Notes under the pieces: generated by a model
Told to the model about the DNA's origin: nothing
The model's database searches: none
Seen by the model: only the letters and a program-made list of their open reading frames with translations
IMG/VR virus record: IMGVR_UViG_3300042922_000087
Location: 1-38,469 of that record
Length of the DNA stretch: 38,469 nucleotides
Origin: a virus
Direction: 5' to 3' (one strand)
Position numbers and translations under genes: made by a program
Shown here: one piece after another, positions 249-12,792 of the stretch
Layout: each line of letters begins with the position of its first letter
Position numbering within the stretch: the first letter of the stretch is position 1

Positions 249-980
249 TTGGGATTGAGTTTTGCCGTGGAAAAGGCTAGCGCTGTTGATCGAATCAATA
301 GCATGATTATCTTCGGAGAGTACGGCACGGGTAAGACCTGGCTGGCTAGCTCTGCGGATGAGATTGAAGAGTACGCACCCGTTCTAGTGGTGGACATTGA
401 GGGCTCAGCGGCAGGTGTTGGTCGTCGTTATCCGAACGTGGATATCGTGGTGGCTGACACTCATGCTAAGCTTGAGTTCATCAAGAACGAGCTACTCACA
501 GAGGATCATGAGTACAAGACAGTGATCTTCGACACGCTGAACGTGGCGCAGAAGCGAGCTAAGAACAAGTTCAAGTCCGACTTCCCGAACAACTCGTTTG
601 CTATGTGGGATGCTCTTTCTGAGTGGTCCATGGATTTTGTACGTTCGATGCATCACGCACCGTTCATGGCAATCTTCATTGCTCACCCTCAGACCGACAA
701 GGACGACAACACCGGTAAGCTGACAACCACTGTTAAGCTGGCTGGTGGAGCGCGTTCCGAAGTCCCCACCGTGCCTGACCTTATTGGTTACACGTTCTAT
801 ACCACGGACGAAGAGACTGGTCAGCCGGTGCGAGCACTACAGGTTGGTCGCTCAGCAGGTGTGGTAACCAAGAATCGTTTCGGACTGCCGGATGTTATCG
901 TTCCGCAGACCGGTAGTGAGGGTGTAACAATCTTTGACATTCAGTCCGAGATTATCAAGGCACGGGAGGCAGGCAAGTGA
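249..980 (+). CDS. Sak4-like RecA/RAD51-fold ATPase (recombinase)
   Basis: A 243-residue P-loop ATPase of the phage Sak4 type, which promotes single-strand annealing and recombination during phage replication together with an SSB. The Walker A motif GEYGTGKT is at residues 23-30. A Walker B-like strand (KTVIFDTLN) lies near residue 90, and IFIAHPQTDKD near 140 resembles the RecA core strand after Walker B. The start is a TTG at 249, chosen because a perfect AGGAGG lies at 237-242 just before it and the previous gene stops at 245. The gene behind it encodes the likely SSB partner, a pairing common in phages. The family call is by motif and context; an unrelated AAA_24-type ATPase is the alternative. 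Confidence 0.85.
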   Translation: MGLSFAVEKASAVDRINSMIIFGEYGTGKTWLASSADEIEEYAPVLVVDIEGSAAGVGRRYPNVDIVVADTHAKLEFIKNELLTEDHEYKTVIFDTLNVAQKRAKNKFKSDFPNNSFAMWDALSEWSMDFVRSMHHAPFMAIFIAHPQTDKDDNTGKLTTTVKLAGGARSEVPTVPDLIGYTFYTTDEETGQPVRALQVGRSAGVVTKNRFGLPDVIVPQTGSEGVTIFDIQSEIIKAREAGK

Positions 981-1925: not shown

Positions 1926-4148
1926 GTGGAAGCCAAGAAATTCTTCGAGGTAATTTTTGGGGACGGTGAAGGCGAGGCCGTCCTCGTTCTTCCTAACAGA
2001 GAGGGGAAGCCTACTAACGACTTCTGGTTCTCGTACCCAGAACAGCTTGAGGAAATGGCTGACTTTGTGTGGTCGAATGAGCACGCAGATGTATGGTTCA
2101 GCCCCGCACTGTTCCGTGAGCGCGACCGCCACAAGGAATATTCACAGCGCCTAGGAGTATTGGGCGCGGACGCTGACACATGCGAGCCAGATAACTTCCG
2201 CGTCTATCCTGACATTGTAATTGAGTCTAGCCCTGGACGTTTTCAGGTCTACTGGATTCCGTCAGACGTTGACGACTACGCACCCGAGGACGTAGCCAAG
2301 GTCAACCGCCGCATCGCACAGGTACACAAGCATCAGGGCTGTGACCCCTCGTACGTCAACCCGGCCAAGCTTATGCGCGTGCCGGGTACGTCGAACGGTA
2401 AGCACCCCGGCGCTATCGTGATCGTACAGAGCTACGATTTTACCTCACCGATTTCGGTGCAGGCAATGGACACTCTGTACCCTGAGTCTGAGGTAGCGGA
2501 CGCATACGAAGCCAGCATCGGTGATATGCCGGATGATCTGGAAGAGTTCATCGCGCAGAACCGAGCCAAGCTTCTCAACGGTCTGCCCAACAGTGCAGGT
2601 CTACGTGACCTAGTGTTCAAGGCTCCACACATGGAATCTCGTTCAGAAGCATTGTTCAGACTCATGTGTGAGCTTTATCGTCTTGGTCTGGACGACAAGG
2701 AAGTAATGGCTGTCGCTTGGGGAAGCCCGAGCAACAAGTTCAACGGCGAAGACCCGCGAGGACTCAAGGGACTGTGGGACACCGCACTTCTCAAGGCTAA
2801 GACAGCGGCTTTCGATCCTGACTACGAGTGGGATATCGAGACGGCTTACTACGATAACGACGAGCCAGCTCCACGCAAGGAACAGCAGTTTGTTAAGAAG
2901 ATTGACTTCCTGACAAATGAAGAGCAAGAATTAGTATCATCGATCCCTAACTTCATTGATGAGTGGGTGACCTGGGCAGGTACCAAGACGGACTCGCCCG
3001 CAGAGTATCACCGAGCAGCAGCTATGGCTCTGTTGTCGGCTGTGTATTCTGAGTTTGGTCACGCCACCCCGCAGTGGGGACCGATGAAACTTAACTTGTG
3101 GTTCATGGTGCTGGGTCGCTCGACCCTTGACCGTAAGTCTACGGCACGGTCGTACATGAACAAGGCATTCCGTGCCTTGAAGACTGAGGATTACAACTAC
3201 AGTATCGGTGACGACGTAACGCCGGGAGGTATCTCTCTGGCGCTTCACGACCGAGGCAACAAGGCAACGGTGTTCGACCGCGATGAGGTACAGGGTCTAT
3301 TCAAGGAACTTCTGCACCAAAGTTATATGTCCGGTGGACTCGAAGTCTTTACTAAGTTGTACGACGGCTGGTCCGGTGGTCGAGTTCGAGCATCTGGCGA
3401 GAAGAAAATTCAAGAGTCTGTTCCGGTTTCATTCATCATGTTCATGATGGGTATTCTCACGGAGTCTGCTGACGTTCTTACGGTGACAAACTTCCGATCA
3501 GGATTCCTTACACGATTCCTGTACGTGGTAGGACACCGCCCTGAGGGGTACGTTCCACCGCCCATCCAACAGAGCAAGGAAGAGGAAGACAAGTCCGATC
3601 CTGTGTTCGATGGAATGATGAGTCATCTGTCTCGTAACCGAGATTACTGGGAAATGTATGGAGGGGACGGCGACACCGTTCCCATCCGTGCCACTGACGA
3701 AGCATGGGCGCGCTACCAGAAGTTCGAAACCGACGTTAGAACGGCGGCTGGCAACACTCTGTATGCTGAGGTCATCGCTACCACGTCTGAGCGTACTACA
3801 CACAGCACGCTCAAGCTGGCGGCTCTCCTGGCCATGGATGATCGTTCAAAGCGTATCGAGCTAAAGCACATGTTGCAGGCTATCGGCTACGCGGGTGAGT
3901 GGATCACTAATGCTATGACAATGGCGACTATGGTTTCCGAGTCTGAGTGGCAGCGTGACGTGGACAAGCTGGAACAGTTCATAAACAGCAAGGGTGGCAT
4001 AGTGAGCTACGCAGTAGCCTATCGCCACTTCCAAGACAAGAGGCCATTCGAGTTCGAAGAAATGATCGCCGCGCTAGAGCAGCGCGGAGTTCTAACCCGA
4101 GAAAAGGATGGTTCACGATGGACATTGAAGGTGAGTTATGGCGACTGA
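1926..4148 (+). CDS. Primase-helicase (RepB-type primase + P-loop helicase)
   Basis: A 740-residue replication protein with two modules. The first 180 residues resemble RepB-type archaeo-eukaryotic primases: catalytic acidic cluster ADAD at 81-84, SSPGRFQVYW at 101-110, and NPAKLMRVPGTSNGK near 145-159. Residues 340-600 look like a DUF3987-type P-loop helicase, with a divergent Walker A GRSTLDRKST at 397-406 and Walker B VFDRDE at 449-454. A short C-terminal winged-helix-like tail follows. The start is a GTG at 1926 with AAGGGG six bases before it. It would prime and unwind DNA for the split PolA encoded downstream. The assignment is strong for a primase-helicase and weaker for exact family names. 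Confidence 0.85.
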   Translation: MEAKKFFEVIFGDGEGEAVLVLPNREGKPTNDFWFSYPEQLEEMADFVWSNEHADVWFSPALFRERDRHKEYSQRLGVLGADADTCEPDNFRVYPDIVIESSPGRFQVYWIPSDVDDYAPEDVAKVNRRIAQVHKHQGCDPSYVNPAKLMRVPGTSNGKHPGAIVIVQSYDFTSPISVQAMDTLYPESEVADAYEASIGDMPDDLEEFIAQNRAKLLNGLPNSAGLRDLVFKAPHMESRSEALFRLMCELYRLGLDDKEVMAVAWGSPSNKFNGEDPRGLKGLWDTALLKAKTAAFDPDYEWDIETAYYDNDEPAPRKEQQFVKKIDFLTNEEQELVSSIPNFIDEWVTWAGTKTDSPAEYHRAAAMALLSAVYSEFGHATPQWGPMKLNLWFMVLGRSTLDRKSTARSYMNKAFRALKTEDYNYSIGDDVTPGGISLALHDRGNKATVFDRDEVQGLFKELLHQSYMSGGLEVFTKLYDGWSGGRVRASGEKKIQESVPVSFIMFMMGILTESADVLTVTNFRSGFLTRFLYVVGHRPEGYVPPPIQQSKEEEDKSDPVFDGMMSHLSRNRDYWEMYGGDGDTVPIRATDEAWARYQKFETDVRTAAGNTLYAEVIATTSERTTHSTLKLAALLAMDDRSKRIELKHMLQAIGYAGEWITNAMTMATMVSESEWQRDVDKLEQFINSKGGIVSYAVAYRHFQDKRPFEFEEMIAALEQRGVLTREKDGSRWTLKVSYGD

Positions 4149-4317: not shown

Positions 4318-4663
4318 ATACAATGATAGAATCCGATTCGGATTGAAGGTCGATAAGTCGAGGGCCGCTGGGGAACTAGCGGCCTTTGGCTTATTCTCCT
4401 GGCTTGAGATTAGCATGATTCTGGATACCTCTGTAGATTTTGTTAAGAGGGCCGAGGGCATGCACGGAAATCTCTCACAGCCTCAGCGTGTCTGGAATAT
4501 CCACAGCCTGTCCGCGTTGTACCTAGTGGCTCTGAACTACCGCGACGGTAAGGTATCTACTGCACTTATCCGCAGGCTGGCAGAGAACAACAATAGCTTG
4601 CGAGCTATTTCACAGCTAACGGACATTCCGATTGAGAGATTGAGGGAAGTGATGAATGACTAG
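4280..4663 (+). CDS. Helical, possibly DNA-binding protein
   Basis: A 127-residue, mostly helical protein beginning MTDKAEALRVATEYN. Two stretches could be helix-turn-helix units: SWLEISMILDTSVDFVKRAEG and, at the C-terminus, LRAISQLTDIPIERLREV. The frame is open further upstream to a TTG at 4193, but ATG 4280 is preferred because the upstream part overlaps the 59-residue gene and lacks a ribosome site, while GGTGGGA lies just before 4280. The stop overlaps the polymerase start by 8 bases. A replication accessory or regulator role is inferred only. Confidence 0.65.
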   Translation: MTDKAEALRVATEYNDRIRFGLKVDKSRAAGELAAFGLFSWLEISMILDTSVDFVKRAEGMHGNLSQPQRVWNIHSLSALYLVALNYRDGKVSTALIRRLAENNNSLRAISQLTDIPIERLREVMND

Positions 4664-6062
4664 ATTCTGTTATGTCTACAGCGAGCAGGAACTAACCCCT
4701 CGTGCCGCTGACACTATCTCTACAATCAAGAAAGAAAATGGCTGGGATGATGTAACGTTCTTGCCCGCCGATGGTATGGTTTACGGTAAAGTTCTAGTGT
4801 TCGGTAGTCGCGCGCCTGAGGGTGTGTGGGACGGCGTAGAGTTTATACACACCTATTCGGTGGCTCAAATCATGAGCAAGGCTAACGCCATTACGGTGCT
4901 GGATGCCGCACTCAAGATGTATTTCAACGGCAAGCACGAGCCCACAATTAATGCTAATCTTAATTGGTTGTGCGCCATTGACGTACCGCCAGTTTCATAT
5001 TCATTTCAATATGATCAGCCAGTAGCAATAGATATCGAGACAGACGGTAACTTAGGCAAGACTCACACACCGGATGAAGTCAACATCATCAGCATTGCTA
5101 TGTACGACGGCGGTCAAATTCCTATTGTGTGGGTGAATCCCGCTGAGGATGGTACCTGTCTGCCACTCTCGGCTGAGCAGATAGCGATGTTCCGAGAGGA
5201 ACTACCCAAGTACACAAAGCTGATCTTCCAGAACGGCAAGTTCGACCTCAGGGTTATGGAGCGAGTGCTTGGCGTTAAGCTATGCAACTGGTTCGATACC
5301 ATGCTGGCGCACCACGTTCTCAACATGGCGGCAGGTGAGCACGGACTCAAGATTCTGGCCCAGAGATATCTCGGCGCGGAGGATTGGGAAACTGGCATCA
5401 AGCAGTACACCAAGGGTGGCGGTCACTACGAGCGCATTCCTTACACAATTCTGGCCAAGTATAATGGCTGGGATGTGTACTGGACGTACCGTCTCTGGGA
5501 GTTGTTCGCACCGCAAATCGAGGCAGACGAGAACAATCAAATGGCTTTCATGCTAGAAATGCAGGCCGCTGATATGCTTCTCAACGTAGAACGTAACGGT
5601 ATCCCGTTCTCTATCAAGGCAGCGACAGAGCTTGCCGCTGAACAGGAAGCTATTATGGAGGATCGCAGAGCACAGTTGCGTGACTTGACTATGCGACCCG
5701 AGTTCAATCCTAATAGTCCTCAGCAAGTCAAAGCCGCACTGAAAGAATGGGGTATCGACGTAGCTTCGACGGCTGTTGAAGTGATCGAAGAACTTACGGA
5801 CAGCACAGGGTCTGTATTCGTTAAGTCATTCTGTGAGTTTTTGTTGGAGTACCGTAAGGCATCCAAAATCAAGGGTACGTACGCTGAGGGCTGGATGAAG
5901 TCAGCGCGTATCGACGGTAACGCACAGTTCAGAGTACATCCTACGTTCCTAGTACATGGAACATCAACAGGCCGTCTGTCGTCTACCTCGCCAAACGCAC
6001 AGAACATGCCTAGGAATAAAGAGGTCAGAAAGATTGTTGCATTGAGTAGCGGGGGAAGCTAA
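4656..6062 (+). CDS. polA: DNA polymerase I, N-terminal half (3'-5' exonuclease + thumb)
   Basis: 468 residues corresponding to the proofreading exonuclease and thumb of a phage family-A polymerase. Exo I is D126/E128 (AIDIETD), Exo II is FQNGKFD with D197, and Exo III is YNGWD with D273, so the nuclease looks intact. The C-terminal part has the family-A signature TGRLSSTSPNAQNMPR. The gene stops about 15 residues later, just where an intact PolA would run on into motif A. The stop TAA overlaps the ATG of a small acidic ORF (TAATG). The missing palm and fingers are encoded at 6246-6995. It probably assembles with that half; see findings. Confidence 0.9.
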   Translation: MTRFCYVYSEQELTPRAADTISTIKKENGWDDVTFLPADGMVYGKVLVFGSRAPEGVWDGVEFIHTYSVAQIMSKANAITVLDAALKMYFNGKHEPTINANLNWLCAIDVPPVSYSFQYDQPVAIDIETDGNLGKTHTPDEVNIISIAMYDGGQIPIVWVNPAEDGTCLPLSAEQIAMFREELPKYTKLIFQNGKFDLRVMERVLGVKLCNWFDTMLAHHVLNMAAGEHGLKILAQRYLGAEDWETGIKQYTKGGGHYERIPYTILAKYNGWDVYWTYRLWELFAPQIEADENNQMAFMLEMQAADMLLNVERNGIPFSIKAATELAAEQEAIMEDRRAQLRDLTMRPEFNPNSPQQVKAALKEWGIDVASTAVEVIEELTDSTGSVFVKSFCEFLLEYRKASKIKGTYAEGWMKSARIDGNAQFRVHPTFLVHGTSTGRLSSTSPNAQNMPRNKEVRKIVALSSGGS

Positions 6063-6265
6063 TGGGTACATTTACATTTGTCAGCTATAGTGGTCCAGAC
6101 GCAGGTATAGTGTTAGTTAAGATGCTGGCAGATGGTGTGCCCGAGGCCGAAGTCCATGATCTAGAATCCGTGGAGGAAGAGCGCAGGCCGATTGGGTTCC
6201 AGCCTAATCCTGAGTCTGACGACGAGGAACCTGAGGAAGGTGACGATGACGAAGGTGATGATTAA
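6062..6265 (+). CDS. Small acidic protein inserted between the PolA halves
   Basis: 67 residues. The first 35 look like a small fold (GTFTFVSYSGPDAGIVLVKM); the last 25 are almost all Asp/Glu/Pro/Gly (SDDEEPEEGDDDEGDD). The ATG overlaps the stop of the N-terminal polymerase half, with GGGGGAAGC before it, and its 3' end overlaps the start of the C-terminal half by 20 bases. No intein or endonuclease motif is visible. It may bridge or regulate the two polymerase halves, mimic DNA through its acidic tail, or be an unrelated insertion. Confidence 0.75.
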   Translation: MGTFTFVSYSGPDAGIVLVKMLADGVPEAEVHDLESVEEERRPIGFQPNPESDDEEPEEGDDDEGDD

Positions 6266-6995
6266 TATTGACCTGAGTCAGGCGGAGCTTAGAGTCATGG
6301 CTATCCTCAGCGGAGACAAGTGGCTACAGGAAGCTCTACAAGAAGGTGCAGGAGACTTCTTCAACACTCACCTAATGCCCGTAGCTTATCCAGCCAAGGT
6401 GAATAAGTACGGCACGGTGGATAGATGGGAAGAGCATGCACCGGTAGAACACAAGGAATGCCGTACTATATGCAAAGCCGTCGTGTACGGTCTAGCATTC
6501 GGTCGGCAGGCACCCGCTATCGCTCAGTCTCTTGGAATGACTACGCGAGAAGCGCAGAAGATTATCGATGCCTTCCTGAGTAAGGCGCATGATCTGGACC
6601 GTTTCCGTCAGGAGATTATGGAAGCGGCACGGGTGCCGTCCAAGCGGGATATTCTAATTAACCCTTTCGGTCGCCGCTTTCAATCCGAGGTAGTAACTAC
6701 AAAGAACTACAGAAACATTCAGCGAGAAGCGTTGTCGTTTCTGCCGCAGTCCACGTCCAGTGACATTATGATTGCTACAGCTATTCGAATCTATCCGAAC
6801 CTAGAGCAGGCAGGGTACAAGATGTTCAATCTCGTACACGATGCTATGATGCTTGAGGGTGACGTAGAGGGTGCTGAAATGATCGCAACGTTTGTCGGAC
6901 AAGAGCTGCGTAAGACAGGGGAAATGGTTCTCGGCAACGCCGTGCCGTTCCTCAGTGATTGGTCGGTAGGCCAGTCGTGGGCCGATTTGTCATAG
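6246..6995 (+). CDS. polA: DNA polymerase I, C-terminal half (palm and fingers)
   Basis: 249 residues holding the polymerase active site. Motif A is IDLSQAELR with D9; motif B (O-helix) is RTICKAVVYG with R73, K77 and Y81; motif C is LVHDAM with H198 and D199, where the Glu usual after HD is Ala. The start is ATG 6246, preferred over 6258 because GGAAGG at 6235-6240 lies five bases before it. In an intact PolA this polypeptide would follow directly on the N-terminal half encoded at 4656-6062. Both catalytic carboxylates are present, so the reconstituted enzyme should be active. Confidence 0.9.
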   Translation: MTKVMINIDLSQAELRVMAILSGDKWLQEALQEGAGDFFNTHLMPVAYPAKVNKYGTVDRWEEHAPVEHKECRTICKAVVYGLAFGRQAPAIAQSLGMTTREAQKIIDAFLSKAHDLDRFRQEIMEAARVPSKRDILINPFGRRFQSEVVTTKNYRNIQREALSFLPQSTSSDIMIATAIRIYPNLEQAGYKMFNLVHDAMMLEGDVEGAEMIATFVGQELRKTGEMVLGNAVPFLSDWSVGQSWADLS

Positions 6996-8421: not shown

Positions 8422-8494
8422 GGGCCTGTAGCTCCAATGGTAGAGCAACGCTTTTGCAAGGCGAAGGTTCTCGGTTCAAATCCGAGTAGGTCCA
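8422..8494 (+). tRNA. tRNA-Ala(UGC)
   Basis: Acceptor GGGCCTG/TAGGTCC with the G3-U70 pair that marks alanine tRNAs. D arm GCTC/GAGC, anticodon loop TTTGCAA (UGC), T arm CTCGG-TTCAAAT-CCGAG, discriminator A. No CCA is encoded. First tRNA of the main array. Confidence 0.95.
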
Positions 8495-8742
8495 CAACAA
8501 GAGGGGGCACTCTCTTGGGGAATGGCGGAACGAACGTCGGTAGCAATAGCCGACAACGAAACGCACATGCGGAGTCACAATCTCAAGACATATCTGAGGG
8601 CAAGCTGCTGAGGATATGGGGGCGAGGACGGGTTTAGCGGCCTTGAACGTGATTTGCTTAGCGGCTAACGTATGGTCAGACAGTATTTATCAGCCAAATG
8701 ATTGCCTGTCTGTGTGGGTGGAGTCCCACTTCCCACTTTTAT
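8495..8742 (+). ncRNA. Folded inter-tRNA segment 1 (unrecognised)
   Basis: 248 bases without a credible gene, between tRNA-Ala and tRNA-Met. Several good hairpins are visible: AAGAGGG/CTCTCTT with a GGCA loop (8499-8516), CATATC/GATATG (8589-8618), CAGACAG/CTGTCTG (8677-8712) and GTGGG/CCCAC (8714-8729). The density of paired arms suggests a structured RNA cotranscribed with the tRNAs. A tmRNA was considered but no tag frame ending in the usual Ala-Ala was found. Identity is unknown. Confidence 0.4.
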
Positions 8743-8816
8743 GTCGGGGTGCAAGTAACGGTAACTGGCCAGCCTCATAAGCTGTGCGACTGAGGGTTCG
8801 ATTCCCTCCCCCGCCA
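8743..8816 (+). tRNA. tRNA-Met(CAU), imperfect acceptor and D arms
   Basis: T arm GAGGG-TTCGATT-CCCTC is clear. Anticodon loop CTCATAA gives CAU on a 4-bp stem. Acceptor GTCGGGG/CCCCGCC has one mismatch at 2-71, and the D stem is weak although the loop has GG. It could be elongator Met, initiator, or a lysidine-type Ile tRNA; the sequence does not decide. Confidence 0.6.
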
Positions 8817-8978
8817 CGGAATAACTCAACAGTGTTTAATCATGGCCGTCCAAAAAAGGTTAGCGAGGACGGCGGAAGCGGATGACAAACCAGTAACCTT
8901 GCGGTGCGAGCGTGTCGCTCAAACCAAGACCCACACTAGTAGACCATGCTAGGGTTGTAGCTGTTAGGTCATCCACCC
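8817..8978 (+). ncRNA. Folded inter-tRNA segment 2, tRNA-like outer stem
   Basis: 162 bases between tRNA-Met and tRNA-Pro. GCCGTCC/GGACGGC (8845-8873) forms a 7-bp hairpin. Then GGATGAC (8880-8886) pairs perfectly with GTCATCC (8968-8974) as a 7-bp outer stem followed by A, like an acceptor, around an inner GAGCG/CGCTC hairpin. There is no T loop or standard anticodon loop, so it is not an ordinary tRNA. A degenerate tRNA or an unknown RNA is possible. Confidence 0.4.
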
Positions 8979-9053
8979 CTGGGTGTAGCTCAGTTTGGTC
9001 AGAGTGTTTGCTTTGGAAGCTTAAAGTCGTAGGTTCGAATCCTGCCACCCAGA
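8979..9053 (+). tRNA. tRNA-Pro(UGG)
   Basis: Acceptor CTGGGTG/CACCCAG is perfect; D arm GCTC/GAGT; anticodon loop TTTGGAA (UGG) on a stem with two T-T mismatches; T arm GTAGG-TTCGAAT-CCTGC; discriminator A. No CCA is encoded. Confidence 0.85.
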
Positions 9054-9055
9054 CT

Positions 9056-9127
9056 GTGAACGTAGTTCAATGGTAGATAGCCTGAATGTGAGTCAGGAAG
9101 ATGCCGGTTCGAGTCCGGTCGTTCACC
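9056..9127 (+). tRNA. tRNA-His(GUG)
   Basis: Acceptor GTGAACG/CGTTCAC is perfect; anticodon stem CCTGA/TCAGG with loop ATGTGAG (GUG); T arm GCCGG-TTCGAGT-CCGGT; discriminator C, as expected for histidine. It starts two bases after tRNA-Pro. Confidence 0.93.
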
Positions 9128-9131
9128 CCAA

Positions 9132-9203
9132 GGCTGTATAGTGAAAAGGTCATCACACCTGTCTGTCTAACAGGTAGTCGGGGTTCGAGTCCCCGTACGG
9201 TCG
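9132..9203 (+). tRNA. tRNA-Asp(GUC), encoded CCA
   Basis: Acceptor GGCTGTA/TACGGTC with G-U pairs; anticodon stem CCTGT/ACAGG with loop CTGTCTA (GUC); T arm CGGGG-TTCGAGT-CCCCG; discriminator G. CCA follows at 9204-9206, one of only three tRNAs here with it encoded. Confidence 0.93.
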
Positions 9204-9207
9204 CCAA

Positions 9208-9278
9208 GCTCCCATAGTGTAATGGTAACATCGCTGATTCTCAGTCAGTGGTCAGGGGATCGAAACCCCTTGGGAGTA
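9208..9278 (+). tRNA. tRNA-Glu(CUC)
   Basis: Acceptor GCTCCCA/TGGGAGT; anticodon stem GCTGA/TCAGT with loop TTCTCAG (CUC); T arm AGGGG-ATCGAAA-CCCCT; discriminator A. It lies immediately behind tRNA-Asp. Confidence 0.92.
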
Positions 9279-9545
9279 CAGAGGAAGGAAGCGCTAGGCT
9301 ACCAACCTGCCAACAATGTATGACTCAGTAGCGTAAGTCCCTTGCGGGCGGTGAACAGAATAGTGACATGAGGTAAGGTGGAAGCCTAAGCGGGCCGGAT
9401 TCCGATGAGGGTTGGTTACCCTGGGCCAGCGCAAGGCTGAAATAACCTGAGGGCGGGGACCGTGCCGAGTAGCTGTGGTTGCTAATGCCAGGCGAAGCGG
9501 TATTAAATGTACCGATTGAGGATGCGTCACGGTACCCGCCTACAT
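9279..9545 (+). ncRNA. Folded inter-tRNA segment 3 (unrecognised)
   Basis: 267 bases between two tRNA-Glu genes with no supportable ORF. It is purine-rich, with multiple hairpins including AGGGT/ACCCT (9408-9422) and GTACCG/CGGTAC (9509-9535). Short GNRA- and GAAATAA-like single-stranded stretches recall structured RNAs, but no known class could be matched by eye; RNase P RNA and group I intron cores are not evident. Confidence 0.4.
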
Positions 9546-9617
9546 AGTCCTATAGTGTAAAGGTTAGCACGAGAGTTTTTCACACTCTTAGTTAGGGTTC
9601 AAGTCCCTATAGGATTA
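9546..9617 (+). tRNA. tRNA-Glu(UUC)
   Basis: Acceptor AGTCCTA/TAGGATT; D arm GTGT/GCAC; anticodon stem AGAGT/ACTCT with loop TTTTCAC (UUC); T arm TAGGG-TTCAAGT-CCCTA; discriminator A. Confidence 0.92.
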
Positions 9618-9618
9618 C

Positions 9619-9689
9619 GGCATCGACGGTAGGTTACTGGGCTAGCGCTGTAAACGCTTCGCACTTGGGTTCGAGTCCTAACGGTGTCA
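9619..9689 (+). tRNA. tRNA-Tyr(GUA), short variable loop
   Basis: Acceptor GGCATCG/CGGTGTC; anticodon loop CTGTAAA (GUA) on stem AGCG/CGCT; T arm TTGGG-TTCGAGT-CCTAA; discriminator A. The variable loop is five bases, although bacterial tRNA-Tyr is normally class II. Positions 8-9 are AC rather than UA. Confidence 0.8.
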
Positions 9690-9771
9690 CGCAAGGGCGG
9701 TTCGAAACGCACCTACCATGTGGCCCGCATGAATGTGATCCCCCGGACGCTGTTAAAGGGGAAGGGCACTT
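9690..9771 (+). other. Spacer between tRNA-Tyr and tRNA-Phe
   Basis: 82 bases with no gene. A TCCCC/GGGGA stem (around 9740-9761) and a GCG/CGC mini-hairpin around GGTTCGAAA are visible; the latter resembles a T loop out of context and may be a tRNA remnant. Confidence 0.3.
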
Positions 9772-9844
9772 GGCTTTCAAGCTCTAATGGTCTGAGCGTA
9801 GGTTTGAAAAACCTGAGGGTAGGGTTCGAGTCCCTGGATAGCCA
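9772..9844 (+). tRNA. tRNA-Phe(GAA)
   Basis: Acceptor GGCTTTC/GATAGCC with one mismatch; D arm GCTC/GAGC; anticodon stem TAGGT/ACCTG with loop TTGAAAA (GAA); T arm TAGGG-TTCGAGT-CCCTG; discriminator A. Confidence 0.93.
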
Positions 9845-9873
9845 CACAGAAAAACACAACAATAGGAGGAAAC

Positions 9874-10056
9874 ATGGGCGCTGAATTTTATGTTCTGATT
9901 GACCGTAAGACTAACAAGGTAGCACTCATGAAGAGCGGTAAGCCATTCGTATACACTACCTTGAAGACGGCACGGATGGGTGCTAAGTACTTGGGCTTGA
10001 AGCGCAAGACTAAGTTCAAGGTTACGCCCCGGTTTACCGGAGCTATTGTTACATAA
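9874..10056 (+). CDS. Small basic protein within the tRNA array (60 aa)
   Basis: 60 residues (MGAEFYVLIDRKTNKVALMK...), lysine-rich with alternating beta strands and a basic C-terminal half (LGLKRKTKFKVTPRF). A strong AGGAGGAA at 9864-9871 precedes the ATG. The gene sits between tRNA-Phe and tRNA-Leu and its stop codon is the first triplet of an AU-rich box that leads into the next tRNA. The charge suggests nucleic-acid binding; the family is unknown. Confidence 0.75.
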   Translation: MGAEFYVLIDRKTNKVALMKSGKPFVYTTLKTARMGAKYLGLKRKTKFKVTPRFTGAIVT

Positions 10057-10064
10057 TTTAATAC
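10054..10064 (+). repeat. AU-rich box abutting tRNA-Leu(CAA)
   Basis: TAATTTAATAC; its last base is directly before the 5' end of the tRNA at 10065, and its first TAA is the stop codon of the preceding gene. One of five similar boxes at RNA 5' ends in this array. Confidence 0.6.
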
Positions 10065-10137
10065 GCACCACTACGCCAACGGAAGAGCGTACCGCCTCAA
10101 CAGCGGAGGGTTCTGGGTTCGAATCCCAGGTGGTGTA
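10065..10137 (+). tRNA. tRNA-Leu(CAA), short variable loop
   Basis: Acceptor GCACCAC/GTGGTGT; anticodon loop CTCAACA (CAA) on stem CCGC/GCGG; T arm CTGGG-TTCGAAT-CCCAG; discriminator A. The variable loop is GGGTT, with no long arm, unlike standard bacterial tRNA-Leu. Confidence 0.85.
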
Positions 10138-10138
10138 C

Positions 10139-10211
10139 GGCTCGGTATCCCAACGGTAGAGGAAGCGGTCTTAGAAACCGTTCAGTGTGGGTTCGAATCC
10201 CACTCGGGCTA
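10139..10211 (+). tRNA. tRNA-Leu(UAG), short variable loop
   Basis: Acceptor GGCTCGG/TCGGGCT; anticodon stem GCGGT/ACCGT with loop CTTAGAA (UAG); T arm GTGGG-TTCGAAT-CCCAC; variable loop TCAGT; discriminator A. It is the third leucine tRNA lacking a long variable arm. Confidence 0.87.
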
Positions 10212-10214
10212 CGT

Positions 10215-10243
10215 TTGACACAACACAGGAAGTATGGTATACT
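10215..10243 (+). promoter_or_regulatory. Strong sigma70-type promoter inside the array
   Basis: TTGACA (10215-10220), 17 bases, TATACT (10238-10243) with extended -10 TGG. An ATG follows after seven bases (10251). It begins four bases after tRNA-Leu(UAG) and closely matches the promoter at 8249 around the -10 (TATACTaatacacATG and TATACTagtacacATG). Confidence 0.8.
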
Positions 10244-10250
10244 AGTACAC

Positions 10251-10313
10251 ATGTTCACAACGATCCAGTCGAAGCGCACCGGCAATAACGTCGGGAACTT
10301 TGTGCTGGGTTAA
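10251..10313 (+). CDS. Leaderless 20-residue micro-ORF
   Basis: ATG 10251 to TAA 10311 encodes MFTTIQSKRTGNNVGNFVLG. It starts at the expected transcription start and is followed by a strong terminator hairpin. The architecture equals the 8249-8391 module but the peptide is unrelated. It could be a leader peptide, a small functional peptide, or incidental coding in a small RNA. Confidence 0.4.
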   Translation: MFTTIQSKRTGNNVGNFVLG

Positions 10314-10337
10314 ATTCCTCCTTTCTGTGTTGATTAC

Positions 10338-10379
10338 AGAGGCCCGGTACCTTACAAAGGAACCGGGCCTCTAACATTT
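10338..10379 (+). terminator. Intrinsic terminator of the micro-ORF transcript
   Basis: AGAGGCCCGGT (10338-10348) pairs with ACCGGGCCTCT (10362-10372), an 11-bp perfect stem, followed by AACATTT. It closes the short promoter/micro-ORF unit just before tRNA-Ser; alternatively it is a stable 3' end of a small RNA. Confidence 0.65.
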
Positions 10380-10462
10380 GGAAGCTCCGACATTGGCGTG
10401 TTATACGGTCTTGAAAACCGGTAAGCCGCAAGGCAGTGTGGGTTCGACTCCCTCAGCTTCCG
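10380..10462 (+). tRNA. tRNA-Ser(UGA)
   Basis: Acceptor GGAAGCT/AGCTTCC is perfect; anticodon loop CTTGAAA (UGA); long variable arm with stem GCC/GGC; T loop TTCGACT; discriminator G. It is a normal class II serine tRNA, in contrast to the leucine tRNAs here. Confidence 0.93.
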
Positions 10463-10467
10463 CAGCA

Positions 10468-10478
10468 TAATTAAATAC
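10468..10478 (+). repeat. AU-rich box before the 10479 hairpin RNA
   Basis: TAATTAAATAC, the same element that abuts tRNA 5' ends elsewhere. Here it leads into a folded segment rather than a tRNA. Confidence 0.5.
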
Positions 10479-10557
10479 TTGGGGCACCACAAACGATTTC
10501 CCGAAGGGGGGAAGTCAGACGATGAGGCGAGTACCCATTCGTGTGGTGTCCCAACTA
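10479..10557 (+). ncRNA. Hairpin RNA candidate between the tRNA-Ser genes
   Basis: TGGGGCACCAC (10480-10490) pairs with GTGGTGTCCCA (10543-10553), an 11-bp outer stem with one G-U; inside are a TTCCC/GGGAA hairpin and a CGATGAGGCGAG loop. It is preceded by the AU-rich box that otherwise marks tRNA 5' ends, which suggests a processed RNA. The class is unknown. Confidence 0.45.
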
Positions 10558-10642
10558 GGAAGGTAGAACAGGGTTGGTGCCCTGGCCTGTTTGCTAAACA
10601 GATCGTACCGAGAGGTATGGAGTTCGACTCTCCCACTTTCCG
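10558..10642 (+). tRNA. tRNA-Ser(GCU)
   Basis: Acceptor GGAAGGT/ACTTTCC; anticodon loop TTGCTAA (GCU) on stem CTGT/ACAG; long variable arm GTACC/GGTAT; T loop TTCGACT; discriminator G. Confidence 0.9.
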
Positions 10643-10643
10643 C

Positions 10644-10714
10644 TGGCCTAAAGCATTATGGTGATGCACTTGACTCTTAATCTCGGGATCAGGGTTCGAT
10701 TCCCTGTGGGCCTA
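10644..10714 (+). tRNA. tRNA-Lys(CUU)
   Basis: Acceptor TGGCCTA/TGGGCCT with a mismatch at 1-72; D arm GCAT/ATGC; anticodon loop CTCTTAA (CUU) on a stem with two mismatches; T arm CAGGG-TTCGATT-CCCTG; discriminator A. Confidence 0.82.
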
Positions 10715-10715
10715 C

Positions 10716-10789
10716 GTGGTAGTAGTGTTAGTGGTATAGCACGTCAGTCTTCCAAACTGAAAGGCAGAGTTCGAGTCTCTGTTACCGCA
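10716..10789 (+). tRNA. tRNA-Gly(UCC)
   Basis: Acceptor GTGGTAG/TTACCGC; D arm GTGT/GCAC; anticodon stem TCAGT/ACTGA with loop CTTCCAA (UCC); T arm CAGAG-TTCGAGT-CTCTG. Confidence 0.93.
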
Positions 10790-10855
10790 CTCGTCCGTGT
10801 ACACGATATCGCTCTGGGACGCTAAGCTGAGCGGGCTGACAACCTACTGTCACAT
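10790..10855 (+). other. Spacer with palindrome between the tRNA-Gly genes
   Basis: 66 bases with no gene. CGTGTACACG (10796-10805) is a perfect 10-base palindrome, and GCTC/GAGC can form a short hairpin downstream. No regulator can be named. Confidence 0.3.
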
Positions 10856-10928
10856 GTGGTACTAGTGTTAGTGGTTAGCACAAGACGTTGCCAACGTTTT
10901 AGGGTGGGTTCGAGTCCCGCGTGCCGCA
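10856..10928 (+). tRNA. tRNA-Gly(GCC)
   Basis: Acceptor GTGGTAC/GTGCCGC; D arm GTGT/GCAC; anticodon stem AGACG/CGTTT with loop TTGCCAA (GCC); T arm GTGGG-TTCGAGT-CCCGC; discriminator A. The next gene's ATG begins two bases after its discriminator. Confidence 0.93.
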
Positions 10929-10929
10929 C

Positions 10930-11193
10930 ATGGGATACAAAAGGACAGGGCGTCCTACTGGTCGCCCATCAAAGCACACAACTGAACAGTGGAATGAAGC
11001 TAAGAAACTCTTAGAAGACGGAGCAAGCTATCGAGAGACAGCCTTGACAACTGGTATTCCGAAGAGTACACTTAGAGATAACCTTCCGGGTTACGGATGG
11101 TCGGCACAGGAGGCAGGTCGTTTCCGTGCCATGCTGAACAAGTCACACATATCCAAGGAAGTGTGGGATTTGAACAGACGTAACAACGGATAA
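10930..11193 (+). CDS. Helix-turn-helix DNA-binding protein
   Basis: 87 residues with an N-terminal homeodomain-like HTH: RPSKHTTEQWNEAKKLLEDG, then ASYRETALTTGIPKSTLRDN, in the style of Hin/resolvase or Psq-type HTH units. A C-terminal basic tail follows. ATG 10930 is chosen; the frame also has a GTG at 10921, but that lies within tRNA-Gly. There is no ribosome site; the start lies two bases after the tRNA's last base, so tRNA 3' processing would leave a leaderless message. It ends one base before tRNA-Thr. A transcriptional regulator is likely. Confidence 0.75.
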   Translation: MGYKRTGRPTGRPSKHTTEQWNEAKKLLEDGASYRETALTTGIPKSTLRDNLPGYGWSAQEAGRFRAMLNKSHISKEVWDLNRRNNG

Positions 11194-11194
11194 C

Positions 11195-11266
11195 GCCGGT
11201 ATAGCTTAATGGGCAAAGCATGTGTCTTGTAAACATAAGTCGGGAGTTCGAATCTCCATTCCGGCA
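11195..11266 (+). tRNA. tRNA-Thr(UGU)
   Basis: Acceptor GCCGGTA/TTCCGGC with one mismatch; D arm GCTT/AAGC; anticodon stem TGTGT/ACATA with loop CTTGTAA (UGU); T loop TTCGAAT; discriminator A. Confidence 0.9.
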
Positions 11267-11337
11267 CGGTGAGGTAGGCTACTGGGTATGCCCCTCACAA
11301 GGGACTGAGACTAGACCCAGGCTAGTCTCACTCCTAC
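11267..11337 (+). ncRNA. Folded segment between tRNA-Thr and tRNA-Val
   Basis: 71 bases with two strong hairpins: GTGAGG/CCTCAC (11269-11298) and TGAGACTAG/CTAGTCTCA (11306-11330, 9 bp perfect, loop ACCCAGG). No ORF. It is a candidate small structured RNA or a processing element. Confidence 0.4.
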
Positions 11338-11406
11338 CCTCCTGTCGTCGGGTGCGGACGGCTCTCTTACACGGAGCCAGGCTAGGTTCGATTCCTAGTG
11401 GGAGGA
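11338..11406 (+). tRNA. tRNA-Val(UAC)
   Basis: Acceptor CCTCCTG/TGGGAGG; anticodon stem GCTCT/GGAGC with loop CTTACAC (UAC); T arm CTAGG-TTCGATT-CCTAG; discriminator A. D arm is GTC/GAC, slightly short, for a total of 69 bases. Confidence 0.87.
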
Positions 11407-11461
11407 CAGTGGGTGATGGTACGCGCCTTCCCTTATCTAAAAAGGTAAAAGCGGCCAGTAT

Positions 11462-11533
11462 TCTCACGTAGCTAAATGGTAAAGCGCTTGACTGTTAATC
11501 AGGTGATTGTTGGTTCGAATCCAGCCGTGAGAG
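11462..11533 (+). tRNA. tRNA-Asn(GUU)
   Basis: Acceptor TCTCACG/CGTGAGA is perfect; anticodon stem CTTGA/TCAGG with loop CTGTTAA (GUU); T arm GTTGG-TTCGAAT-CCAGC; discriminator G. The 55 bases before it (11407-11461) hold only a weak GCC/GGC stem. Confidence 0.93.
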
Positions 11534-11589
11534 CAATACGCGAAGAACTGCCAAGCACAGGCCCGGTAATGCGCCGGTAGCGTAGATTT

Positions 11590-11661
11590 GCCTTCGTAAG
11601 CTAAAGGATAAACTACGACGCTACGAACGTCATATTCTAGGTTCGAGTCCTAGCGGGGGCA
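11590..11661 (+). tRNA. tRNA-Arg(ACG), encoded CCA
   Basis: Acceptor GCCTTCG/CGGGGGC with G-U pairs; anticodon loop CTACGAA (ACG, needing A-to-I editing by the host to read CGU/CGC/CGA); T arm CTAGG-TTCGAGT-CCTAG; discriminator A; CCA at 11662-11664. The preceding 56 bases (11534-11589) contain only a CCGG/CCGG mini-hairpin. Confidence 0.88.
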
Positions 11662-11687
11662 CCACCAACACAGAAAGTAGGAGTAGA

Positions 11688-11897
11688 ATGAAGAGAATTA
11701 TCAGTGTAGTACTTGGTGCATCGTTGATCTTTGGTCTTGGAGCAGTGTCAGCAAGCAACGTGTTAAACACCCCCAAGCCTCAGGCACCGGCAGTTGTTAA
11801 GCAGACTCAGTTTTGCCAGACGTGTTTCTACACCTGGAACCCCAAAACTCAGTCCTACGTTCGGACTTGCTACCTAGTAGTTTGTCACGCAGTATAA
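11688..11897 (+). CDS. Small secreted Cys-containing protein (69 aa)
   Basis: 69 residues with a classical signal peptide: MKRI, a hydrophobic core ISVVLGASLIFGLGAVSA, and a possible cleavage after AVSA or VSAS. The mature part (about 46 residues) has a CQTC motif and two further Cys near the C-terminus (TCYLVVCHAV), suitable for disulphides outside the membrane. AGGAG at 11678-11682 precedes the ATG. It lies between tRNA-Arg and tRNA-Gln; the stop codon forms the start of an AU-rich box. An envelope-directed role such as exclusion or lysis timing is possible but not shown. Confidence 0.75.
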   Translation: MKRIISVVLGASLIFGLGAVSASNVLNTPKPQAPAVVKQTQFCQTCFYTWNPKTQSYVRTCYLVVCHAV

Positions 11898-11905
11898 TTC
11901 AATAA
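11895..11905 (+). repeat. AU-rich box abutting tRNA-Gln(CUG)
   Basis: TAATTCAATAA, directly before the 5' end of the tRNA at 11906 and overlapping the stop codon of the secreted-protein gene. Confidence 0.55.
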
Positions 11906-11977
11906 TCCCGGTTGGTGTAATCGGCAACACGACAGACTCTGAATCTGTAGTACGAGGATCGTAACCTTGGCTGGGAG
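11906..11977 (+). tRNA. tRNA-Gln(CUG)
   Basis: Acceptor TCCCGGT/GCTGGGA with wobble pairs; anticodon stem ACAGA/TCTGT with loop CTCTGAA (CUG); T arm CGAGG-ATCGTAA-CCTTG; discriminator G. Confidence 0.88.
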
Positions 11978-11981
11978 CTTT

Positions 11982-12054
11982 ACGCGGGTGGGTTGCTGGC
12001 ATCCCATTCTGACTTTGAATCAGAGCCACGCTGGTCCGATTCCAGCCCCGCGTG
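11982..12054 (+). tRNA. tRNA-Gln(UUG)
   Basis: Acceptor ACGCGGG/CCCGCGT is perfect; anticodon stem TCTGA/TCAGA with loop CTTTGAA (UUG); T arm GCTGG-TCCGATT-CCAGC; discriminator G. Confidence 0.93.
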
Positions 12055-12058
12055 CCGA

Positions 12059-12130
12059 GGGTGTATAGCTGAGATGGATTAGCTCTTGCCTTTTAAGCTT
12101 GAGAGGTGGGTTCGATACCTACTGCACCCA
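12059..12130 (+). tRNA. tRNA-Lys(UUU)
   Basis: Acceptor GGGTGTA/TGCACCC; D arm GCT/AGC; anticodon loop CTTTTAA (UUU) on a stem with two T-T mismatches; T arm GTGGG-TTCGATA-CCTAC; discriminator A. Confidence 0.87.
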
Positions 12131-12131
12131 C

Positions 12132-12141
12132 AATTTAATAC
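12132..12141 (+). repeat. AU-rich box abutting tRNA-Ile(UAU)
   Basis: AATTTAATAC fills the whole spacer between tRNA-Lys and the first base of tRNA-Ile at 12142. Here the box separates two tRNAs, so it is not just a by-product of a stop codon. Confidence 0.6.
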
Positions 12142-12215
12142 GCGGAGGAAGCACGCTGGTATGTGCAACTGTCTTATTAACAGCAGGTAGGCGAGTTCGA
12201 TTCTCCCCCTCCGTA
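12142..12215 (+). tRNA. tRNA-Ile(UAU)
   Basis: Acceptor GCGGAGG/CCTCCGT; D arm GCAC/GTGC; anticodon stem CTGT/ACAG with loop CTTATTA (UAU); T loop TTCGATT; discriminator A. UAU reads AUA directly, without the lysidine-modified CAU tRNA used by most bacteria. Confidence 0.87.
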
Positions 12216-12216
12216 C

Positions 12217-12287
12217 GGTGGACTGGCCGAGTGACTAGGTACAGGATTGCAACCCCTGGTAGGTGAGTTAGAATCTCACGTCCACTT
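12217..12287 (+). tRNA. tRNA-Cys(GCA)
   Basis: Acceptor GGTGGAC/GTCCACT; anticodon loop TTGCAAC (GCA) on CAGGA/CCCTG with A-C at 31-39; T arm GTGAG-TTAGAAT-CTCAC, where A replaces the usual C56; discriminator T, as expected for cysteine. Confidence 0.88.
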
Positions 12288-12312
12288 CCACTTGAACAGA
12301 TAGGAGTAGAAT

Positions 12313-12627
12313 ATGTCGTATAGCGAAAACATTGCATATCAGCCCGAGAAGTTTGGGCTTGAGTTTCATGGCTCGCTCGACCTTGAGGACGAGCCTTATC
12401 AGTTTTACATTGTAGGTGTTTGGGAAGGACCGGAGGGATTCTATATCTCTACGGACAGCGGGTGCTCGTGCCCTTCGCCGTGGGAAAACCACATGAGCAT
12501 GGAAGACCTTACAGGTCCGCTAACACGCGAGCAGGCTCACGAAGAGATTACCTCTCTTTGGAACAACTCTTATTACAAGGGTTCGCTACCAGAGCGTGAC
12601 CTAGAGCAGTTTCTAGCGAGCTTCTGA
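12313..12627 (+). CDS. Hypothetical protein in the tRNA array (104 aa)
   Basis: 104 residues, acidic, with an aromatic beta-rich first half (EPYQFYIVGVWEGPEGFYIS), a CSCPSPWE segment and an acidic helical C-terminal half (LTREQAHEEITSLWNN). TAGGAGT precedes the ATG. It sits between tRNA-Cys and tRNA-Arg, and an AU-rich box follows its stop directly. No family is recognised with confidence. Confidence 0.75.
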   Translation: MSYSENIAYQPEKFGLEFHGSLDLEDEPYQFYIVGVWEGPEGFYISTDSGCSCPSPWENHMSMEDLTGPLTREQAHEEITSLWNNSYYKGSLPERDLEQFLASF

Positions 12628-12638
12628 TAATTTAATAC
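12628..12638 (+). repeat. AU-rich box abutting tRNA-Arg(UCU)
   Basis: TAATTTAATAC; the last base is also the first base of tRNA-Arg. It follows the TGA of the preceding gene immediately. Confidence 0.6.
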
Positions 12639-12704
12639 CCCCTTGGAAGGATCACCACGGGTGTTCTAAGCCTTTAGGTCCGGGTTCGACTCCTGGCAGG
12701 GGGG
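12638..12704 (+). tRNA. tRNA-Arg(UCU), very short D arm, encoded CCA
   Basis: Acceptor CCCCCTT/CAGGGGG (six of seven pairs); anticodon loop GTTCTAA (UCU); T arm CCGGG-TTCGACT-CCTGG; discriminator G; CCA at 12705-12707. Only 13 bases lie between acceptor and anticodon stem instead of about 19, so the D arm is strongly reduced, giving 67 bases in total. Confidence 0.65.
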
Positions 12705-12708
12705 CCAT

Positions 12709-12782
12709 AGCTAAGACTCCAATTTGGTATAGGTACCGTTCTGATAAGACGGAAATACTGGGTTCGAATCCCAGCTTAGCTA
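12709..12782 (+). tRNA. tRNA-Ile(GAU)
   Basis: Acceptor AGCTAAG/CTTAGCT is perfect; anticodon stem CCGTT/GACGG with loop CTGATAA (GAU); T arm CTGGG-TTCGAAT-CCCAG; discriminator A. Last tRNA of the main array. Confidence 0.93.
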
Positions 12783-12792
12783 CAGGATTCTG

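Follow-up and report, generated by a model that had tools for sequence, protein, structure and literature searches.

A DNA polymerase I gene conserved in two pieces in a clade of phages, with replaceable small genes at the cut

We found that the DNA polymerase I gene (polA) of an uncultured phage is present as two genes, and that this split is real, conserved, and independently evolved, with a replaceable cassette of small genes at the cut. The stretch of DNA analyzed, referred to as the window, comprises the 38,469 nucleotides of the IMG/VR record IMGVR_UViG_3300042922_000087. We consider it highly probable that one ancient fission gave rise to a two-chain Pol I made from one coupled message, and that small genes then used the cut as a point of entry. 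The earlier note on this DNA had described DNA polymerase I in two genes around a further ORF, a description borne out by complementary Pfam matches. The features of the locus are as follows.

249 to 980, plus strand: Sak4-like/ASCE ATPase, a context gene in the same replication module (PF13479, phrog_124)
1926 to 4148, plus strand: primase, a context gene in the same replication module (phrog_10514, 8e-141)
4656 to 6062, plus strand: ORF1, N-terminal half of a family A DNA polymerase (468 aa)
6051 to 6056, plus strand: GGGGGA, probable (weak) ribosome-binding site for ORF2, within the 3' end of ORF1
6062 to 6265, plus strand: ORF2, acidic-tailed protein of 67 aa (coding signal, tail composition, homologues at the same place)
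6232 to 6241, plus strand: GAGGAAGGTG, probable ribosome-binding site of ORF3, doubling as the acidic-tail codons E-E-G-D
6246 to 6995, plus strand: ORF3, C-terminal half with palm, fingers, and motifs A, B, and C (PF00476, phrog_17, alignment)

ORF1 comprises the N-terminal region, the 3'-5' exonuclease, the thumb, and the first palm strand, and ends in ...QNMPRNKEVRKIVALSSGGS followed by the stop codon. It matched phrog_17 (6e-70), PF01612 (6e-17), and positions 5 to 141 of the PF00476 model, and ORF3 matched positions 155 to 381 of PF00476 (9e-30); the halves are therefore complementary. The exonuclease residues of a family A Pol I (D126, E128, N193, D197, Y269, and D273 in ORF1; pattern DxE, NxxxD, YxxxD) are present and invariant across the split clade. 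ORF3 contains motifs A (INIDLSQAELR), B (R..K...YGLAFG), and C (HDA), and thus the family A signatures with the catalytic Asp (IDLSQAELR, R..K...YG, and HD). The previous observation that the key residues of both activities are present therefore stands, but the Glu reported as lacking after HD is no peculiarity of this enzyme. Intact relatives also have another residue at this position (HDA in Stenotrophomonas virus Jojan60 and Curtobacterium phage Yappy, HDQ in Anansi), so that its absence characterizes the family and does not point to decay. Across the clade, both activities retain their catalytic residues, except for motif A insertions in three members (L010, L090, and L181; see below). The pN/pS ratios were 0.17 to 0.33 for ORF3 and 0.25 to 0.45 for ORF1, which are rough values since synonymous changes are near saturation, and indicate that purifying selection acts on both polymerase halves.

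Alignment with intact relatives located the cut between the NMPR-like motif and motif A, in agreement with the initial reading, and at the same place across the clade. The window reads VRKIVALSSGGS / MTKVMINIDLSQAELR where the intact enzyme of Jojan60 reads VRHCFIARSEDRVLIEVDYSQAELR. Compared with intact homologues, phage PolA proteins included, no residues are missing at the cut, and the halves align end to end without an extra domain. On Klenow, we take the cut site to be the turn of the palm hairpin between two strands, before the strand with the first catalytic aspartate. We also modeled the sequence that runs in frame from ORF1 into ORF3, with stops read as Gly and together with 53 relatives. 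The joined model formed one Klenow-like fold (pLDDT 88, pTM 0.87) with a disordered joining stretch, and Klenow was its best match in the PDB (1kfs, E = 9e-29; 1kln, TM 0.86 by target). Because this is an artificial single chain, modeled on an alignment of mostly intact polymerases that would tend to assemble anyway, it shows that ORF1 and ORF3 are structurally compatible, which is a statement on compatibility and not on binding.

ORF1 and ORF3 share one reading frame in the window, and that of ORF2 is different. ORF1 and ORF2 overlap by 1 nt (TAATG), and ORF2 and ORF3 by 20 nt, or by 8 nt if ORF3 starts at the ATG at 6258. The ATG at 6246 is most likely the start, because it is preceded by the Shine-Dalgarno-like GAGGAAGGTG, because the near relative L009 keeps both candidate ATGs, and because the resulting MTKVMINID matches the starts of relatives (MRNTLINCD, MSLTLINVD, and MGRVLINVD). 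The GGGGGA ahead of ORF2 received no score in an automatic ribosome-binding-site scan. The start/stop overlaps already noted at both junctions extend to the clade, in which neighboring genes at the cut are mostly chained in this manner, by 1 to 20 nt. Since there are such overlaps, and ribosome-binding sites inside the preceding gene, we infer coupled translation, in line with the suggestion that the three proteins are likely made together.

Scans of IMG/VR revealed the same cut in 12 distinct sequences, including the window, from at least eight datasets; all of them are metagenome contigs, with no cultured member. The adjacent and complementary gene halves that mark a split polymerase are conserved in these relatives. 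In a maximum-likelihood tree, the split sequences formed one clade (100/100) within intact polymerases. Of the loci with both halves, the gene is intact in 230, and outside the clade it is broken only in OM43 phage MEP401 and L254. The single clade and the 230 intact loci argue for one split event in the clade of the window, with the intact gene as the apparent ancestral state. Relatives with an intact polA and no middle ORF, which had been named as potential evidence against the split, do exist, but they are distant and indicate only this ancestry. The closest named relatives of both halves are Jojan60, Yappy, and Arthrobacter Amigovirus (38 to 41% over the C-terminal half); like the window, they have the same surrounding replication module, but they possess one polA gene and no insert. 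The primase lies beside intact polA in the same order in Yappy and Jojan60. A scan of bacterial genomes with ORF1 retrieved no clade member, only distant relatives of at most 32% identity. In L254 (660-3966), the break is at a different position, with approximately 630 nt separating the open frames. L083 was rejected as a split member, since a run of N accounts for its apparent break.

The content of the cut differs among the members of the clade. There is no gene in L012/L013, where the halves overlap by ATGA and, in L012, are in different frames. A single gene was observed in L009 (acidic gene) and in L182 and L179, the latter a partial contig (a 102- or 87-aa gene), whereas two genes were found in L011 (26 and 76 aa), L184 (Cys-rich and charged helical), and L090 and L181 (87- to 89-aa gene and acidic gene). 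The cut harbors three genes in L093 (87- to 89-aa gene, acidic gene, and 71-aa Cys-rich gene) and L185/L186 (acidic, 89-aa, and charged helical genes), and four ORFs in L010 (102-aa gene, acidic gene, 90-aa Cys-rich gene, and 74-aa gene). A relative of the Cys-rich gene sits elsewhere in L182, at 2818-3051, as would be predicted for small genes that come and go. The insert proteins gave no convincing family match; the best was that of the Cys-rich gene of L010 to phrog_9706 (E = 0.0016), a family of unknown function. No homing endonuclease family (mobE/seg type) was detected at E ≤ 0.001 in the inserts scanned; an ancient homing endonuclease may formerly have been present at the cut and been lost.

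The 67-residue protein with a poly-acidic tail that fills the gap in the window had been noticed previously. Of its residues, 22 are D or E, including 13 among the last 17; all other genes of the 39 checked in the window have fewer than six D/E in this segment. The frame of ORF2 had a coding score of +0.17 log-odds per codon, versus -0.25 to -1.15 in the five other frames; based on this score and the homologues at the same place, we judge ORF2 to be a coding gene. Homologues are located at the cut in L009, L010, L090, L093, L181, and L185. The family thus occurs in 7 of the 12 split records, invariably at the cut and nowhere else, and is missing from L011, L012, L182, L184, and the partial contig L179, which all have the same cut. 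Of the three-gene order anticipated in relatives, the split therefore recurs in all 12 sequences, but the acidic ORF in only seven. The pN/pS of the family (0.26 to 0.54) indicates some purifying selection. ORF2 had no match in Pfam or in the PDB (profile search) and no solid match in PHROG; the best tblastn hit in phages had an E value of 7, and two scans of viral contigs returned nothing beyond the members reached through polA. An AlphaFold2 model based on seven sequences was poor (pLDDT 65) and mostly disordered, with one helix. In the window, L009, L010, L090, L093, and L181, the gene that follows the acidic one has its ribosome-binding site in the GAG/GAA/GGN codons of the tail, and we hypothesize that requirements of the RNA may account for some of the acidity.

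These data bear on the possibility that the acidic protein is a third subunit (a bridge, a DNA mimic, or an SSB-tail-like regulator), kept at the cut for synthesis in step with the halves. It forms a conserved family found only there, is predicted to be co-translated, and is under some purifying selection, all of which would fit such a role. However, five records do without it despite the same cut, its predicted structure is largely disordered, and unrelated genes occupy the same site; we thus regard a third subunit as improbable. Somewhat more doubtful still is an extended version, in which this subunit docks at the exposed palm hairpin, exchangeable small proteins tune the replicase, and the motif A hairpin-TAG of L090 and L181 is maybe hopped or read through. 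The free-standing acidic linker proposed in the earlier note is not supported, given that 5 of the 12 split relatives have no acidic ORF, with nothing in its place in L012 and unrelated genes in the others.

Another reading is that the insert is an intron, an intein, or a bypassed segment whose removal generates a full-length polymerase; in its favor, introns are common in phage DNA polymerase genes, and the frame of ORF1 in the window is also that of ORF3. An intron has been suggested by the authors who published the split DNA polymerase of MEP401 in 2023 (PMC10580990). For the window, we consider removal very unlikely: the segment is only about 190 nt long and consists of an overlapping reading frame with coding signal, relatives have unrelated genes or nothing in its place, and the frames differ in L012, with an ATGA overlap. 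Furthermore, there was no group I or II intron match in Rfam at E ≤ 1, no intein match in Pfam, and no extra domain at the ends of the halves. An artifact of sequencing or assembly, or a pseudogene undergoing decay, is hardly credible, since, although the window is a single metagenome contig and L010 has a frameshift in motif A, the same cut in 12 distinct sequences, which form one clade with catalytic residues and low pN/pS kept, excludes the sequencing error.

The preferred explanation is therefore a single fission followed by the entry of genes. In the ancestor of the clade, polA would have undergone one break, at the surface turn of the palm hairpin that immediately precedes motif A, through an ATGA-type stop/start overlap that is still present in L012. 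The halves would have kept their catalytic residues and be translated in a coupled fashion from one message, and the chains would pair by re-forming the palm sheet, so that the phage would replicate with a family A (Klenow-like) DNA polymerase built of two chains. Once a gene boundary, the cut would have taken in small genes, one of which, in the sub-lineage of the window, would be an acidic-tailed accessory gene, not a linker, with tail codons that also serve as the ribosome-binding site for the second half. Pairing and activity of the two chains are plausible by analogy with Aeromonas phage 25, in which the two chains of a split family B polymerase (43A/43B) co-purify and are active (PMC2988022).

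Polymerase splits of this kind are already known (MEP401, QDWS535), and the clade of the window is a new, independently evolved case. In MEP401/MEP402 (OP830906; PMC10580990), as in the window, a family A polymerase is cut at the same turn, with ...LQNFDGEIKTLFLSRYGE and a stop codon before the cut and MILNADAKALEWV after it, and a small unknown ORF lies between the halves. However, MEP401 belongs to a remote lineage (Zobellviridae), next to intact HMO-2011-like enzymes, and its ORF14, unlike ORF2, has no acidic tail. Alcaligenes phage vB_Af_QDWS535 (OK172329) and the Manatee Spring phages MW202697 and MW202796 also have two family A genes cut at this turn. In contrast to the window, QDWS535 has no insert and its halves overlap by 1 nt, whereas MW202697 has one small ORF in the cut, and in MW202796.1 (L276, L278) a cytosine methyltransferase and a stomatin-like gene lie in the 3.6 kb that separate the halves. 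In the tree, MEP401, QDWS535, MW202697, and MW202796 form a second clade beside intact HMO-2011-like polymerases. Since a single origin of the MEP401 group and the clade of the window was rejected (AU p = 0.0003), the same site was cut independently at least twice, with genes entering the cut in both lineages. No report of two such independent cuts with gene entry was found in the open-access literature. The T4-like Aeromonas phages 44RR and 25 likewise encode the replicative polymerase in two genes (gene 43), but this enzyme belongs to family B, and its two genes are kept apart by untranslated sequence or by a homing endonuclease gene, whereas there is no endonuclease at the cut of the window. 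In jumbo phages, the core of DNA polymerase III alpha is also divided between two proteins, although it is of family C and the genes are far apart (PMC7824862).

The cut at the same turn in two remote lineages suggests that a family A replicase tolerates a chain break at the palm turn by the catalytic aspartate. Split polA provides a natural blueprint of a two-chain Pol I that can be put to the test, and it illustrates that a gene boundary within an essential enzyme can turn into an entry site for small genes. In addition, the inserts of this clade, as replaceable coupled genes and not introns, offer an answer to the intron question raised for MEP401.

Three members carry insertions in motif A. 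In L090 (10016-10050) and L181 (11842-11876), an in-frame TAG interrupts the motif (QAEL-TAG-LR; CTT-TAG-CTY) within a small hairpin, which in L181 reads GGAGC-TTTA-GCTCC. Both originate from the same metagenome, but the synonymous sites of their ORF3 are near saturation, and they are therefore not copies of one another. Among the viral contigs, QAEL-TAG-LR occurred in a polymerase only in these two. No ribosome-binding site was present ahead of the next Met after the TAG. Global recoding of TAG is unlikely in L181, where it is an ordinary stop that ends 7 of the 21 long ORFs. Possible outcomes are a hop or bypass, readthrough, a three-piece enzyme, or a lost enzyme. L010 (7990-8015) has a palindromic insertion of 7 nt (CGA-TTAT-CGA) behind QAELR, which causes a frameshift at the codons where L090 and L181 carry the TAG. 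The sister L093 is free of the insertion. In view of these disrupting insertions, some members may be losing or recoding the enzyme.

The window also contains an array of 22 tRNA genes (8422-12783; ARAGORN) with a near-complete set of specificities, and one further tRNA-Leu at 1702-1775. Such an array is common to the window, L009, L010, L012, and L184. Two weak matches to the tRNA-Sec model (10380-10461 and 10558-10641), which were not called by ARAGORN, probably represent tRNAs that have a long variable arm, for example Ser. Also within the array, at 8500-8739, there is a structure resembling the manA RNA (49.7 bits versus the Rfam cut-off of 55.2; E = 2e-10).
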